From Mucilaginibacter frigoritolerans (lineage in GTDB: Bacteria > Bacteroidota > Bacteroidia > Sphingobacteriales > Sphingobacteriaceae): a DNA stretch of 64,000 nt. Numbering within the stretch: the first letter of the stretch is position 1; the number at the start of each line of letters is the position of its first letter. The stretch lies in contig NZ_VLLI01000004.1 in NCBI RefSeq assembly GCF_007830615.1, positions 62,001-126,000 on the forward strand, written 5' to 3'. A program made the position numbers and the translations under genes. Positions 9,933-15,000 of the stretch are shown piece after piece. The notes beneath the pieces are model-generated. The model was not told where the DNA came from, searched no databases, and worked only from the letters and a program-made list of their open reading frames with translations.

Positions 9933-11234
9933 TTAAATGATTTCTTTTTCAATACTAATTAGCCTGAGCGAAACAATTGCTATTAATAACAATAATATAC
10001 TGGCTAATAAAAATACATTTTCCTGAAATTGATGATAAAGTAATGCGCCGGTTATTAATCCAATAATGCTGGCCATACTACCAGCGCTGCTTGCAAAACC
10101 CTGGATAGCTCCCTGGGTATTTTCATTTCCTAAATAGGACATCAGCCCCATAAATGATGGCCACATTAAGCCATTACCTAATGCAAAAAACAGGGCCCCA
10201 GCATAAATTAAAGGAAGATAATTATACCTGAACAAGAAGAAGCTGAGCGCCAGCAATACGCTTCCGGCGATAACCAGTATAGCGCCTGAAAACTTTTTAG
10301 CCATAAAGGTTAATACCGGACCCTGCACCAACACTAATGATCCGCTTAAAAATGCAAAGAAAACACCCAGTTGTAATACCGACCAGTGTAATTTACCTGC
10401 AGTATAAACCGGAAATGCCACATAAAAAAAGCTAAATCCTAAAAATATCAGGAAATATAGTACCATAAACAGGGCAATATAAGGCAGTTTTAATATGCTG
10501 AAAAAGCCAGTTGTGTTTTTACTTTTTAATCCCGAGCAATCTTTACACTGCTGGCTGAGCAGCTTGACTGATGGTTTTATTTCTATAGAAGATACTTTTG
10601 ACTGAACATGTACATCATGCAAACGGAAATAGATTACAATTACGGCCAGTAACGAGACAATGGCTGTTGCTATTACGGGTAATATGCTGCCCCAATGTGT
10701 AGCCCCAAGTAAACCGGCAAGCAAAGGGCCGAATATGAGCCCTAGGTTAGATGCTGCCGACATTTTACCAAAATTCTGTTTCCGCTCATCCTTTGCAGTA
10801 ATATCTGCCAGGTAAGCATTTGCTACGGATATATTGCCGCCGGTAATACCATCAACGGCCCTTGCTAAAAATATAAGTACCAGTGGAATACTGAAAATAT
10901 AATGATGAACAGTGCCCAAATGAATATTCATAAAGGTATTGGGGATCATTAAGCCCGTAAGGAATATGAGCCAGGCAACAAATGTTCCACCCTCGCTAAC
11001 CAGTAATATCTTTCGTCGGCCGTAACGATCAGACCATGCGCCTAAAATTGGGGCACCAATCAGCTGAAAAAACGAATATGTAGCTCCCAATAATCCATAA
11101 ACTATGGCATTGCCCCCCAGCCTCAAAACAATAACCACCAAAAACGGAAGCACAATGCTAAACCCAAGCGTGCCGATAAAATTTACCAGCAATATTGGAA
11201 ACAATAATGATCTGTTTGAGGGTTTACCTGGCAT
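9933..11234 (-). CDS. MFS drug-efflux-type transporter (TetA/MdtG-like)
   Basis: The 433 residues make 12 predicted membrane segments with the MFS motif A in GAWSDRYGRRKILLVSEGG (about residues 65-83) and motif C-like glycines in SNLGLIFGPLLAGLLG. The overall look is the TetA/multidrug DHA1 group: proton-driven export of small molecules. The cytoplasmic loop between segments 6 and 7 contains Cys230 and Cys233 in QQCKDCSG, which is unusual in this family. It is transcribed away from the unknown protein at 11465, and its own promoter lies at 11279-11311. Substrate unknown. Confidence 0.88.
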   Translation of the reverse strand: MPGKPSNRSLLFPILLVNFIGTLGFSIVLPFLVVIVLRLGGNAIVYGLLGATYSFFQLIGAPILGAWSDRYGRRKILLVSEGGTFVAWLIFLTGLMIPNTFMNIHLGTVHHYIFSIPLVLIFLARAVDGITGGNISVANAYLADITAKDERKQNFGKMSAASNLGLIFGPLLAGLLGATHWGSILPVIATAIVSLLAVIVIYFRLHDVHVQSKVSSIEIKPSVKLLSQQCKDCSGLKSKNTTGFFSILKLPYIALFMVLYFLIFLGFSFFYVAFPVYTAGKLHWSVLQLGVFFAFLSGSLVLVQGPVLTFMAKKFSGAILVIAGSVLLALSFFLFRYNYLPLIYAGALFFALGNGLMWPSFMGLMSYLGNENTQGAIQGFASSAGSMASIIGLITGALLYHQFQENVFLLASILLLLIAIVSLRLISIEKEII

Positions 11235-11311: not shown

Positions 11312-11409
11312 AGAATTGTCATATAAAAGCAAGACGGGTCAGCAATTTTATTCCAATTGTCATGCAGGTTCATTTTTGTGTCATAAAGTAGTGTTTTGAG
11401 TAAAAAATA

Positions 11410-11451
11410 GTAAACTTGATTGACTAATATCGTCAACTTAGTTTACCTTTG
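11410..11451 (+). promoter_or_regulatory. Promoter with paired MarR-type operators
   Basis: GTAAACTTGATTGAC (11410-11424) and GTCAACTTAGTTTAC (11432-11446) form an inverted pair, start-to-start 22 bp apart, about two helical turns. The second arm is the exact reverse complement of the 15-mer at 14479-14493 before the MarR gene. A -33-like ATTG (11419-11422) and a -7 TACCTTTG (11444-11451), 21 bases apart, overlap both arms, so a bound repressor would block RNA polymerase. Confidence 0.7.
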
Positions 11452-11464
11452 TTCTATCAAATCA

Positions 11465-11809
11465 ATGGTTATGAAAACACAATACGCAAACGAAATCCTT
11501 TCAGCAATAAATATGGTGAAAAGCATAGTTTATGAAAAGTTAGGAAACAAAAACCTTATTAACACCAAATGGGTTGATGCACTTCTTTCGTTTAAGTTTT
11601 CAAAACATGATATGGAGCATTACATGCTTTTGCTTACCAAAGCAATTATCAAAGAAGCCATTGGAGCCGATATTGAAATAAAGCTTTTATTGATGCTGAT
11701 AGGTGGCTATTTCATATCAGCTAAAGATGCTGTTGTTCACAGCACTTTAATTGAAAAAATAATGAAACCACAAACTGCATCCTATCACTTACCAGAAATG
11801 GCGGCCTAA
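11465..11809 (+). CDS. Small unknown helical protein
   Basis: I do not recognise this 114-residue protein (start at 11465, or ATG at 11471 for 112 residues). Starting further upstream would place the start inside the operator and promoter. It lacks a signal peptide and clear membrane segments; the composition suggests an all-helical soluble protein (LLLTKAIIKEAIGADIEIKLLLMLIGG is a hydrophobic helix pair). It is the first gene behind the MarR-type operators and is followed 10 bases later by the DUF5686 gene, so both are probably one transcript controlled by the MarR regulator downstream. Function unknown. Confidence 0.7.
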   Translation: MVMKTQYANEILSAINMVKSIVYEKLGNKNLINTKWVDALLSFKFSKHDMEHYMLLLTKAIIKEAIGADIEIKLLLMLIGGYFISAKDAVVHSTLIEKIMKPQTASYHLPEMAA

Positions 11810-11819
11810 TACTATTACA

Positions 11820-14381
11820 ATGAAACCTCTTTACATAAAACCCTTTGTTAAAATAATTGCATTGCTGCTGATGTTAATTCCGTCAGTAATATTTGCTCAA
11901 CAAACAGAGATAAAAGGAATTGTTACTGATGCCCGTACCAACGAGACCATGTCGGCAGTGACGGTTAATTTTGAGGGGACAACTATTGGCGCCAGTACCG
12001 ATAATAATGGAAAATATACCTTAATAGCTGATAAGCCGGTAACCCGTATTAAAGTTTCTTTTATAGGTTATAAAACCGTTGTTAAAGAAATTGTACCGGG
12101 CAAGGTTCAAACCATTAATATTGCCATGGCTGCTGATCATCAGGTGCTTGCCGAAGTGGTAGTAAAGAGTGCTAAGAGAGCAAAGTATACCAATAAAAAT
12201 AATCCTGCTGTTGAGTTGATCCGCAAGGTTATTGCCCATAAAAATCAAAACCGGATTGAGAATTATGACTATGCTGAATACAAACAGTATGAGAAAATGT
12301 CGTTTTACCTGAGTGACCTTACTGAGAAGTTCAAACAAAAAAAGATCTTCAAAAATTACCAGTTCCTGTTTGCCGAACAGGATTCTGATGCAATGGGTGG
12401 TAAAATTTTGCTGCCTATTTATATGGAAGAAAAGCTGTCAGATAATTATTTCCGCAAGGCTCCATATACAAAAAAACAAATTATACAGGCTAACAAACAG
12501 GTGAAATATGATGAAAACTTTGTAGATAACGAAGGTCTTAAAGCGTATTTTAACCGGATGTATATGGATATTGAAATTTATGATAACAATATTCCGCTAT
12601 TGGGTAACGAGTTATTAAGCCCTATTGCTGATGGCGCCCCGGCTTTTTACAAATTCTTTATAACAGATACTATTAAGGATGTTAGTCCGCAATTAATTGA
12701 ACTAAGCTTTACTCCCCGCAATACTGGTGATATGTTGTTCCAGGGACGGATATACATTACCATGGACGGCAATTATGCTGTGCAAAGAGCAGTGTTAACG
12801 GTAAATAAAAACATCAACCTAAACTTTGTGCGCCAGATGCAAACTACTTTGGCGTTTGAAAAAACAGAGACAGGAAAATACAGGTTAAGCCAAAGCGATT
12901 TGAAGATGGATTTTGGGCTGAACAAAAATAAAGGTGGTGGTGTTTATGGCGAACGGGTAGTGCTCATTAATAATTTTGAAGTTAATAAGCCCCGTCCGCA
13001 GTATGTTTATAACGGCCCGGCGCAAATGATTGCTTTTAACGCCTCCGAAAAAGGGGATGAGTTTTGGAAAGCAAATCGCCCGGATACCTTGAAACCACAA
13101 GAAGCAAATATTTACAAAAATATTGACAGCCTGCAAACTATTGCGTCATTTAAGCGGACAATGAAGCTTATTACCTTGTTTGTTGCAGGTTATGATAACT
13201 TGGGTCCGTTTGAAGTAGGGCCAGTAAATACGTTTTATCAATATAACCCGGTAGAAGGTTTCAGGCTAAGATTGGGTGGACGTACCACTACAACCTTAAG
13301 CAAACGATATTACCTTGAAACTTATGGCGCTTACGGTTTTAAGGATGATAAATTTAAGTACTTTTTGAGCGGCACTTATTCTATCAACGATAAATCTATT
13401 TATTCATTTCCGCAAGATTATGTAAGGGCCAGTATTCAACATGATACCAAAATTCCGGGTTTGGAATCGCAGTTTGTGCAGGAAGATAATTTCCTGATGT
13501 CATTTAAACGCGGACTCAATGAAATTTATACTTATAATGATGTCTTCAGGCTGGATTATGTGCACGAATATCTGAGCCATTTCTCTTATAAAATAGAATT
13601 AAAGAGCTGGAACCAGGCACCTGCAGGCGCTTTGTATTTCCATAATACATTGGATGGAGCACCAAACGTAATCAACGATTTGCAAACAACCGAGGTAATG
13701 GCCGAGTTACGTTATGCACCGCACGAAAAATTTTATCAGGGTAAATTGTACCGAATTCCTATTCCTGACAAATATCCTATATTTACTTTGCGTTACCAGG
13801 AAGGTATAAAAGGCTTGTTTAAGGGTCAGTATAACTATCAGCAGGTTACTGCCAATATTACCAAACGGTTTTATTTATCACAACTTGGTTTTACCGATGT
13901 GGATGCTGAAGGCGGATATATCTTTAACAAATTGCCTTATCCATTGCTGGATATTCACCATGCCAACCAGAGCTATTCTTTACAGCTTGACTCTTATAAC
14001 ATGATGAACTACCTGGAGTTTGTGAGTGACCATTATGCCAGTGTTAATATTGATCATCATTTTAATGGTTTCTTTTTTAACAAAGTGCCGCTGTTGCAAA
14101 AGCTAAAGTTAAGGGAAGTAGTATCCTTTAAATCACTATGGGGCGGTGTACGGTCTGAAAATAACCCGGCAAACGATCCATCATTATTGCAGTTCCCTGT
14201 GGCTGGCGATGGTAAGCCTATTACCTACACGCTTAATAATGGCCCTTACATGGAAACCAGTGCAGGTATCGAAAATATTTTTAAAGTGCTGAGAGTGGAT
14301 GTGGTTAGAAGGTTAACCTATCTTGATCACCCGGATGCACCGAAATGGGGTGTTCGTGCCCGCGTTTTAGTGCAATTTTAA
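11820..14381 (+). CDS. CarboxypepD_reg-like / DUF5686 outer-membrane protein
   Basis: The 853-residue product has a signal peptide (ending near SVIFAQ), then an immunoglobulin-like CarboxypepD_reg domain (about residues 28-100: IKGIVTDARTNETMSAVTVNF...ISFIGYKT pattern), and a long C-terminal region with many alternating aromatic strands that ends in the barrel-type sequence RARVLVQF. This matches the DUF5686 family of Bacteroidota, predicted outer-membrane barrels related in plan to TonB-dependent receptors but lacking a plug. The substrate is unknown. It shares the MarR-type control region at 11410 with the small gene before it and is followed by the marR gene. Confidence 0.88.
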   Translation: MKPLYIKPFVKIIALLLMLIPSVIFAQQTEIKGIVTDARTNETMSAVTVNFEGTTIGASTDNNGKYTLIADKPVTRIKVSFIGYKTVVKEIVPGKVQTINIAMAADHQVLAEVVVKSAKRAKYTNKNNPAVELIRKVIAHKNQNRIENYDYAEYKQYEKMSFYLSDLTEKFKQKKIFKNYQFLFAEQDSDAMGGKILLPIYMEEKLSDNYFRKAPYTKKQIIQANKQVKYDENFVDNEGLKAYFNRMYMDIEIYDNNIPLLGNELLSPIADGAPAFYKFFITDTIKDVSPQLIELSFTPRNTGDMLFQGRIYITMDGNYAVQRAVLTVNKNINLNFVRQMQTTLAFEKTETGKYRLSQSDLKMDFGLNKNKGGGVYGERVVLINNFEVNKPRPQYVYNGPAQMIAFNASEKGDEFWKANRPDTLKPQEANIYKNIDSLQTIASFKRTMKLITLFVAGYDNLGPFEVGPVNTFYQYNPVEGFRLRLGGRTTTTLSKRYYLETYGAYGFKDDKFKYFLSGTYSINDKSIYSFPQDYVRASIQHDTKIPGLESQFVQEDNFLMSFKRGLNEIYTYNDVFRLDYVHEYLSHFSYKIELKSWNQAPAGALYFHNTLDGAPNVINDLQTTEVMAELRYAPHEKFYQGKLYRIPIPDKYPIFTLRYQEGIKGLFKGQYNYQQVTANITKRFYLSQLGFTDVDAEGGYIFNKLPYPLLDIHHANQSYSLQLDSYNMMNYLEFVSDHYASVNIDHHFNGFFFNKVPLLQKLKLREVVSFKSLWGGVRSENNPANDPSLLQFPVAGDGKPITYTLNNGPYMETSAGIENIFKVLRVDVVRRLTYLDHPDAPKWGVRARVLVQF

Positions 14382-14478
14382 CCTGATTTAAACTGCTTTA
14401 CATCTACCTATAAATAAAACACATGGTGCCATATTTACATTTTTAAACTTTTAAAAAAGACAAATTATTTTTATATTC

Positions 14479-14493
14479 GTAAACTAAGTTGAC
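14479..14493. promoter_or_regulatory. MarR-type operator before marR
   Basis: GTAAACTAAGTTGAC is the exact reverse complement of the arm at 11432-11446. It immediately follows (sharing one base with) TATATTCG (14472-14479), a 7-of-8 match to the -7 element, and lies 48 bp before the marR ATG at 14542, as expected for autorepression. Only one arm is present here. Confidence 0.65.
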
Positions 14494-14541: not shown

Positions 14542-15000
14542 ATGGAAAAATATGAAGCTCCAAAAGTATTGCCCAAACTGGTATACTTATTAAAACGTTC
14601 ATTAGAGGATTGGATTGAAACAGGATTATGCTGCTCATGCAGTACAGATTTCAATAAAGCACAGCTGCCATTGTTTATGAGTATTGGTACCAATGGAATT
14701 TCAAACAGTAAACTTGCATCAAATCTTAACGTAAGCAAGCAGGCTGCCAGTAAAGTAATTAAAGAACTGGAAGAGCTGGACCTGGTTAGAAGTGAGAAAT
14801 GCAGCACCGATGGCCGCTCAATGTTATTGTCGCTTACTGATAATGGTATACAATTGTATAATCACATTAGTAACCAGATGCAGGAATTAGAGAAAGAATA
14901 TAAAAAAATAGTAGGCACCAAAAACTACGAAACTGCAATTGATGTAATGCAGAAACTAATTAACTACCACGAAGAGCATGCTAAAATAGCGCTCAATTAA
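14542..15000 (+). CDS. MarR-family regulator with cysteine cluster
   Basis: The 152-residue protein has a winged helix-turn-helix of the MarR type at about residues 45-105 (ISNSKLASNLNVSKQAASKVIKELEELDLV, then the wing with STDGRSMLLSLTDNG) and flanking helices for dimerisation. Cys30, Cys31 and Cys33 form a CCSC cluster near the N-terminal dimer helix, with Cys87 in the wing; such clusters can sense oxidants or thiol-reactive compounds in MarR/OhrR proteins, which is an inference here. The operator shared with the upstream operon suggests it represses itself and the DUF5686 unit. Confidence 0.88.
   Translation: MEKYEAPKVLPKLVYLLKRSLEDWIETGLCCSCSTDFNKAQLPLFMSIGTNGISNSKLASNLNVSKQAASKVIKELEELDLVRSEKCSTDGRSMLLSLTDNGIQLYNHISNQMQELEKEYKKIVGTKNYETAIDVMQKLINYHEEHAKIALN

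Follow-up and report, generated by a model that had tools for sequence, protein, structure and literature searches.

The window, the whole 64,000-nt stretch of the Mucilaginibacter frigoritolerans genome analysed here, contains a unit of three genes: a gene for a small protein of 114 aa (11465–11809, + strand; its start may be 11471), a gene for an 853-aa DUF5686 outer-membrane protein with a signal helix, a CarbopepD_reg domain and a C-terminal barrel (11820–14381, +), and a gene for a 152-aa putative repressor of the MarR family with the recognition helix SKQAASK (14542–15000, +). A Tet-like MFS gene (9933–11234), which scores far below its equivalog cut-off, diverges from the unit. It was considered as a member of the circuit described below and set aside: among the named loci scanned, the nearest relative, X4EP1 (L042), was alone in showing an adjacent MFS match, although some contigs are too short to judge.

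Two candidate operators precede the small gene and a third precedes marR. The proximal site GTCAACTTAGTTTAC (11432–11446, +) overlaps the −7 element TACCTTTG of the small–DUF5686 promoter (11444–11451, +), a match to the Bacteroidetes form TAHHTTTG; its weaker mirror copy, the distal site GTAAACTTGATTGAC (11410–11424, +), lies 22 bp from it, centre to centre, and overlaps the −33 region; and the marR site (14479–14493, −) is the exact reverse complement of the proximal one. Each 15-mer is also a near-palindrome by itself (GTAAAC-TAA-GTTGAC). The sequence thus bears out the first-pass annotation, which had described a 15-mer at 11432 with its exact reverse complement at 14479, an inverted pair with 22-bp spacing over the promoter, and a second element directly after the marR −7; here the −7-like element TATATTCG (14472–14479, +; one mismatch to TAHHTTTG, assigned from sequence) ends on the first base of the site. 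The operator overlap with −33 is soft, because the −33 element is weak in the Bacteroidetes promoters described in PMC6847099, which gives TAHHTTTG as the −7 consensus; in the window it amounts to a mere TTG (11420–11422). Further upstream, TGTCA stands at 11358 and 11379, that is, at −52 and −31 relative to the pair.

Searching the whole genome (5.66 Mb, 32 contigs) for GTNAACTNAGTTNAC at zero mismatches returned two places only, 11432–11446 and 14479–14493, so that the many unrelated sites which the first-pass annotation had named as evidence against its reading did not appear. Looser forms were rejected as a signal: at up to three mismatches the window has five matches against 2.26 expected, which is near chance, and GTNAAYYNRGTTNAC at one mismatch is at chance level genome-wide (125/131 versus 148/151). 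Since the loose motif is at chance, it is the exact form, together with its conservation, that carries the argument, and the counts are limited to exact or near-exact sites.

The window protein is assigned to the MarR family by its winged helix, which scores above the curated cut-offs for PF01047 (35.7 bits; cut-off 24.6) and PF12802 (33.7; 27). In an alignment of 38 MarRs, ten of them distant (of 13) and 28 close (of 46), the residues K66, Q67, A68, S70 and K71 and the wing residues D90 and R92 are invariant (38/38), although the loci had been retrieved with a pattern containing the helix peptide, and conservation of the helix is to that extent partly by choice; the DNA site lay outside that choice. 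Residues predicted to read the DNA make up most of this invariant set, and the ten distant proteins in the alignment share 22–28% identity with the window protein. Of the 13 distant MarRs (L087–L099; twelve from Actinobacteria and one from a Bacteroidetes MAG), 10 have the site at one mismatch or fewer in the 450 bp upstream, against 3 of 2600 for base-shuffled upstream DNA. The neighbours of these genes include cupin genes (L087, L093) and an HlyD–MFS efflux pair (L089), which suggests that the operator is common to the distant MarRs while their targets differ. In the two actinobacterial loci L087 and L093 the operator-bearing MarR adjoins a Cupin_2 gene, which is divergent in L087; in L093 the site overlaps the cupin start.

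The arrangement recurs in relatives, an outcome that the first-pass annotation had named as support. A family search of 151 genomes found this MarR in 11 and the strict 15-mer in 6, and the first regions compared had operators ahead of small–DUF5686–marR. A scan of named genomes then yielded 58 loci, of which 45 are close (L042–L086) and 13 are the distant ones; with the window, the close loci number 46. They are nearly all from Mucilaginibacter; the others come from Arcticibacter, a Sphingobacteriaceae bacterium of a lichen and three MAGs labelled otherwise. The recurrent layout consists of two mirror 15-bp sites with a centre distance of 22 bp, a TACMTTTG element overlapping them, a gene of about 100 aa, DUF5686 and then marR. 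Of the 46 close loci, 40 show the pair pattern, 39 of them with a total length of 37 bp and one with 38 bp; two more, L044 and L045, have a pair whose distal site is a GTCAA variant. Every locus that has this DUF5686 clade and enough upstream DNA has the pair (41/41); outside this set are L047 and L070, which begin too near DUF5686, and L061, L066 and L085, which have no DUF5686 of the clade beside marR. The putative operators at the marR promoter and at the neighbouring target promoter are both found in the window, and the site upstream of marR recurs at zero or one mismatch in 40 of the 46 close loci. At the other six the marR-proximal site is poor (3–4 mismatches), and autoregulation there may be indirect. 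In Arcticibacter (L039/L085) marR has one internal stop, yet a perfect palindromic site, GTAAACTTAGTTTAC, lies upstream; there is no adjacent DUF5686 of this clade.

When 39 of the 40 pair-bearing loci were aligned on the pair (L056, with spacing 38, was left out), a footprint emerged over 37 bp, with 1.68 bits per column where the preceding 60 bp have 0.39, a value to be read with the knowledge that 20 of the 37 columns are invariant by the search pattern; for the 17 columns left free the mean is about 1.3 bits. Directly 3′ of the proximal site, in columns free of the search pattern, TTTG is invariant in 39/39 loci and completes a TACMTTTG element that fits the Bacteroidetes TAHHTTTG consensus. 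The proximal site covers the −7 element in all 39 loci. The DNA upstream of the pair is A/T-rich.

Across the genus, 57 of 149 Mucilaginibacter genomes contain the site pair, against 0 of 149 for a control pattern read backwards. This MarR (profile search, E ≤ 1e-60) is likewise found in 57 of the 149, a count taken from 66 genomes with matches, the nine with weaker matches only (7e-49 or worse) being scored as absent. The two go together: marR is present in 56 of the 57 pair-bearing genomes and in 1 of the other 92 (Fisher 7e-39, a value that ignores shared ancestry). The exceptions are G230, 86% complete, with the pair and no marR detected, and G252, with marR and no strict pair. Pair and marR share a contig in 52 of the 56 genomes; in 51 the pair lies 2949–3259 bp upstream of marR, and in G211 the distance is 492 bp. 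Such co-occurrence is partly a matter of common descent, the genes travelling as a unit. A natural control is provided by Mucilaginibacter genomes that have the clade DUF5686 (64–69% identity) and lack this marR: at these loci, drawn from the best-scoring part of a 143-genome list and not at random, 0 of 19 have a site at two mismatches or fewer within 800 bp upstream. Twenty such loci were examined, and L156 (G225) was excluded, since it has the operators, the small gene and START, and its contig ends right after DUF5686; three of the 19 genomes (G165, G259 and G157) have a weak marR paralogue elsewhere. The 0/19 result indicates that the sites go with this MarR and not with DUF5686. At five loci in genomes without this marR (L140, L141, L142, L144 and L149), DUF5686 of the clade sits just downstream of RND and TolC-like genes, by Pfam in L140.

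The promoter region holds one further recurrent element, which bears on whether a different regulator binds the sites while MarR is a mere neighbour. In 33 of 40 loci a TGTCA motif precedes the operator pair (7.5% when shuffled), mostly at −31/−32, −50, −61/−62, −20 or −10, with a phasing of about 10 bp relative to the operators; it perhaps represents extra half-sites or a second regulator, and in the latter sense it suggests another protein at this promoter. However, the site is absent at 19/19 DUF5686 loci without this marR, and it precedes distant MarRs whose similarity to the window protein lies chiefly in the DNA-reading residues, so we regard binding by another regulator as highly unlikely. 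The uniqueness of the sites, the conserved layout, the co-occurrence, the control loci and the distant MarR sites instead point to this MarR as the predicted binder, and they support the proposal of the first-pass annotation that the MarR controls its own operon and itself.

We therefore consider it very probable, judging from sequence comparison, that the three genes form a local MarR circuit under autorepression that would induce an outer-membrane DUF5686 module upon ligand binding. In our model the 15-bp pseudo-palindrome GTAAACYNRGTTGAC would be the binding site of one MarR dimer. The small–DUF5686 promoter would be shut by a pair of dimers sitting on its −33 and −7 regions at a distance of roughly two helical turns, and one dimer at the marR start site would limit MarR synthesis. 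A ligand, probably hydrophobic or membrane-active, would release MarR and so induce the outer-membrane DUF5686 protein, joined in certain species by a periplasmic START lipid-binding protein; their task would be to deal with lipids or hydrophobic compounds at the outer membrane. Some MarR proteins activate transcription, and a distal site near −33, with A/T-rich DNA upstream, could in principle help polymerase at the DUF5686 promoter. Yet the proximal site lies over the −7 element in 39/39 aligned loci and the marR site covers the expected start point, the classical position of a repressor; we accordingly judge an activating or dual role of MarR at the DUF5686 promoter very unlikely, and prefer repression.

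With regard to the ligand, AdcR (NF038251) is the best NCBIfam match of the window MarR, and Cys30 is conserved in the aligned Mucilaginibacter MarRs; the MarR could thus bind a metal, as in an AdcR-like zinc sensor, or react through a thiol, as in a Cys30 redox switch, in place of a hydrophobic ligand. AdcR holds its zinc through H42 and a helix-5 His pair. In the window MarR the H42-like position is Gln, it varies in relatives, and the helix-5 His pair is absent; with 47 bits, the score falls well short of the equivalog cut-off of 175, and membership in AdcR was rejected on this ground. The comparison with AdcR/ZitR extends to the top NCBIfam match and stops at the zinc ligands, which are not conserved, and at the operator, which is arranged differently in the AdcR described in PMC6224198. 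We find a metal- or thiol-based mechanism unlikely. The hydrophobic ligand that we favour is itself a guess, as is the physiological role of the unit, and for the class of ligand it draws on neighbour genes only.

Those neighbours include START-domain genes. In 8 of the 46 close loci a second operator pair lies about 0.9 kb upstream, ahead of a START-domain gene with a signal-like N-terminus (PF01852 was checked in L049 and L066), and two pairs per genome were counted in 10 of 149 Mucilaginibacter genomes. The gene order varies: START follows marR in L061, and it follows DUF5686 in L150, which is without this marR. L066 has the small gene and marR without DUF5686. RND or TolC-type genes lie upstream in some loci (checked in L140; OEP also in L048 and L156). 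The START, RND and TolC-type association makes the handling of lipids or hydrophobic compounds by an inducible outer-membrane module our best guess. The circuit had been called self-contained in the first-pass annotation; this holds in the window genome, where no START gene lies beside the unit, and fails at those eight loci, where a START gene joins the predicted regulon. A START paralogue of the window genome (C1:586914) has GTTGAT-N7-GTCAAC upstream (G000:C1:586874-586892, L132), the inner half-sites at the same spacing. As a third target it was not retained, since this form occurs three times genome-wide and three times in the control; it remains a lead.

Circuits of this kind are known, as MexR and MepR are local autoregulated members of the MarR family. 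In common with YvmB/PchR, CrtR and the present unit, they have a MarR-type repressor next to the gene that it targets, a palindromic site at each of the two promoters and a small regulon. YvmB/PchR of B. subtilis is self-regulating and has multiple boxes at its promoters (PMC4992311), and CrtR of C. glutamicum controls the crt operon and its own gene (PMC5401885). The YvmB box GTTYMMYMGTAAAC differs from the site found here, and, unlike circuits of the YvmB or CrtR type, the present one has an outer-membrane DUF5686 target in Bacteroidota and a strict mirror pair at 22 bp. Among the papers listed in the open PMC literature for MarR in Bacteroidetes or Mucilaginibacter, GTAAAC/GTTTAC, periplasmic START, START–DUF5686/MarR and two-operator MarR/MepR, no description of this regulon was found. 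So far as those listings go, the putative regulon would be a new example of a familiar kind of system, and the comparative support for the predicted circuit is unusually good. For a MarR subfamily found in both Bacteroidota and Actinobacteria and so far uncharacterised, it would provide a consensus operator together with a ready-made regulon.

The predicted target is a DUF5686 protein by a wide score (PF18939, 204 bits; gathering score 39.2), and PF18939 is matched in 26/26 aligned DUF5686 proteins; PF13715 (CarbopepD_reg) is matched as well, and this N-terminal domain matches TonB-linked receptors such as RagA and a SusC homologue. The structure model is of low confidence (mean pLDDT 47, pTM 0.41; residues 107–509 mostly below pLDDT 50). 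In comparisons with Foldseek and VIA its C-terminal barrel found Omp85-type proteins only, among the 50 matches listed, at sequence identities of 7–12% among those listed, and the C-terminal ~390 residues superpose best on Sam50 (Z 19.5, 293 residues, rmsd 4.2). The low-confidence model thus suggests a C-terminus resembling the barrel of the Omp85 superfamily (BamA, Sam50, TamA, FhaC). The VRGF/Y motif is a feature of that superfamily, and because a VRGF/Y-like motif ([VILMTAF]RG[FYWHLA]) is absent in 26/26 DUF5686 sequences, we do not file DUF5686 as Omp85. DUF5686 further differs from Omp85 proteins in its N-terminal CarbopepD_reg domain of the SusC type, and no POTRA family is among the Pfam matches at E ≤ 1 in the 26 members. 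A PDB sequence search with the C-terminal half gave no match, and we found no paper on DUF5686 in the open PMC literature. A bolder reading is an inducible outer-membrane assembly or lipid-export route particular to Bacteroidota, in which a MarR-controlled, POTRA-less, Omp85-like DUF5686 barrel with a SusC-type N-terminal domain would be fed by a periplasmic START lipid carrier and tuned by the small protein, perhaps as an antirepressor; we hold it to be unlikely as a whole. DUF5686 can now be tied, in part through the model, to START lipid-binding proteins and a putative Omp85-like barrel, and its function becomes testable through simple induction and deletion.

The small protein has no Pfam or NCBIfam match, and its structure model is unusable (pLDDT 52). 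Its ORF is called at the same place in 37 of the 40 loci with the pair, and dN/dS is 0.18 and 0.15 in two unsaturated close pairs, a third pair being saturated; these ratios point to a real protein gene, fast evolving and under protein-level selection. Rather than belonging to the envelope machinery, the small protein could be a cytoplasmic antirepressor of MarR, as ArmR is for MexR: it has no signal sequence by eye, it accompanies marR and the operators in those 37 loci and even in L066, where DUF5686 is absent, and it is unrecognised at the 19 DUF5686 loci without this marR. At about 100 aa it is longer than ArmR, however, and the idea draws on gene linkage alone, the model being of no help at its pLDDT; we would call an antirepressor role tentative and rather unlikely. 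In one MAG (L068, 4931–7876) the small ORF is joined to DUF5686 in one open frame of 981 aa.
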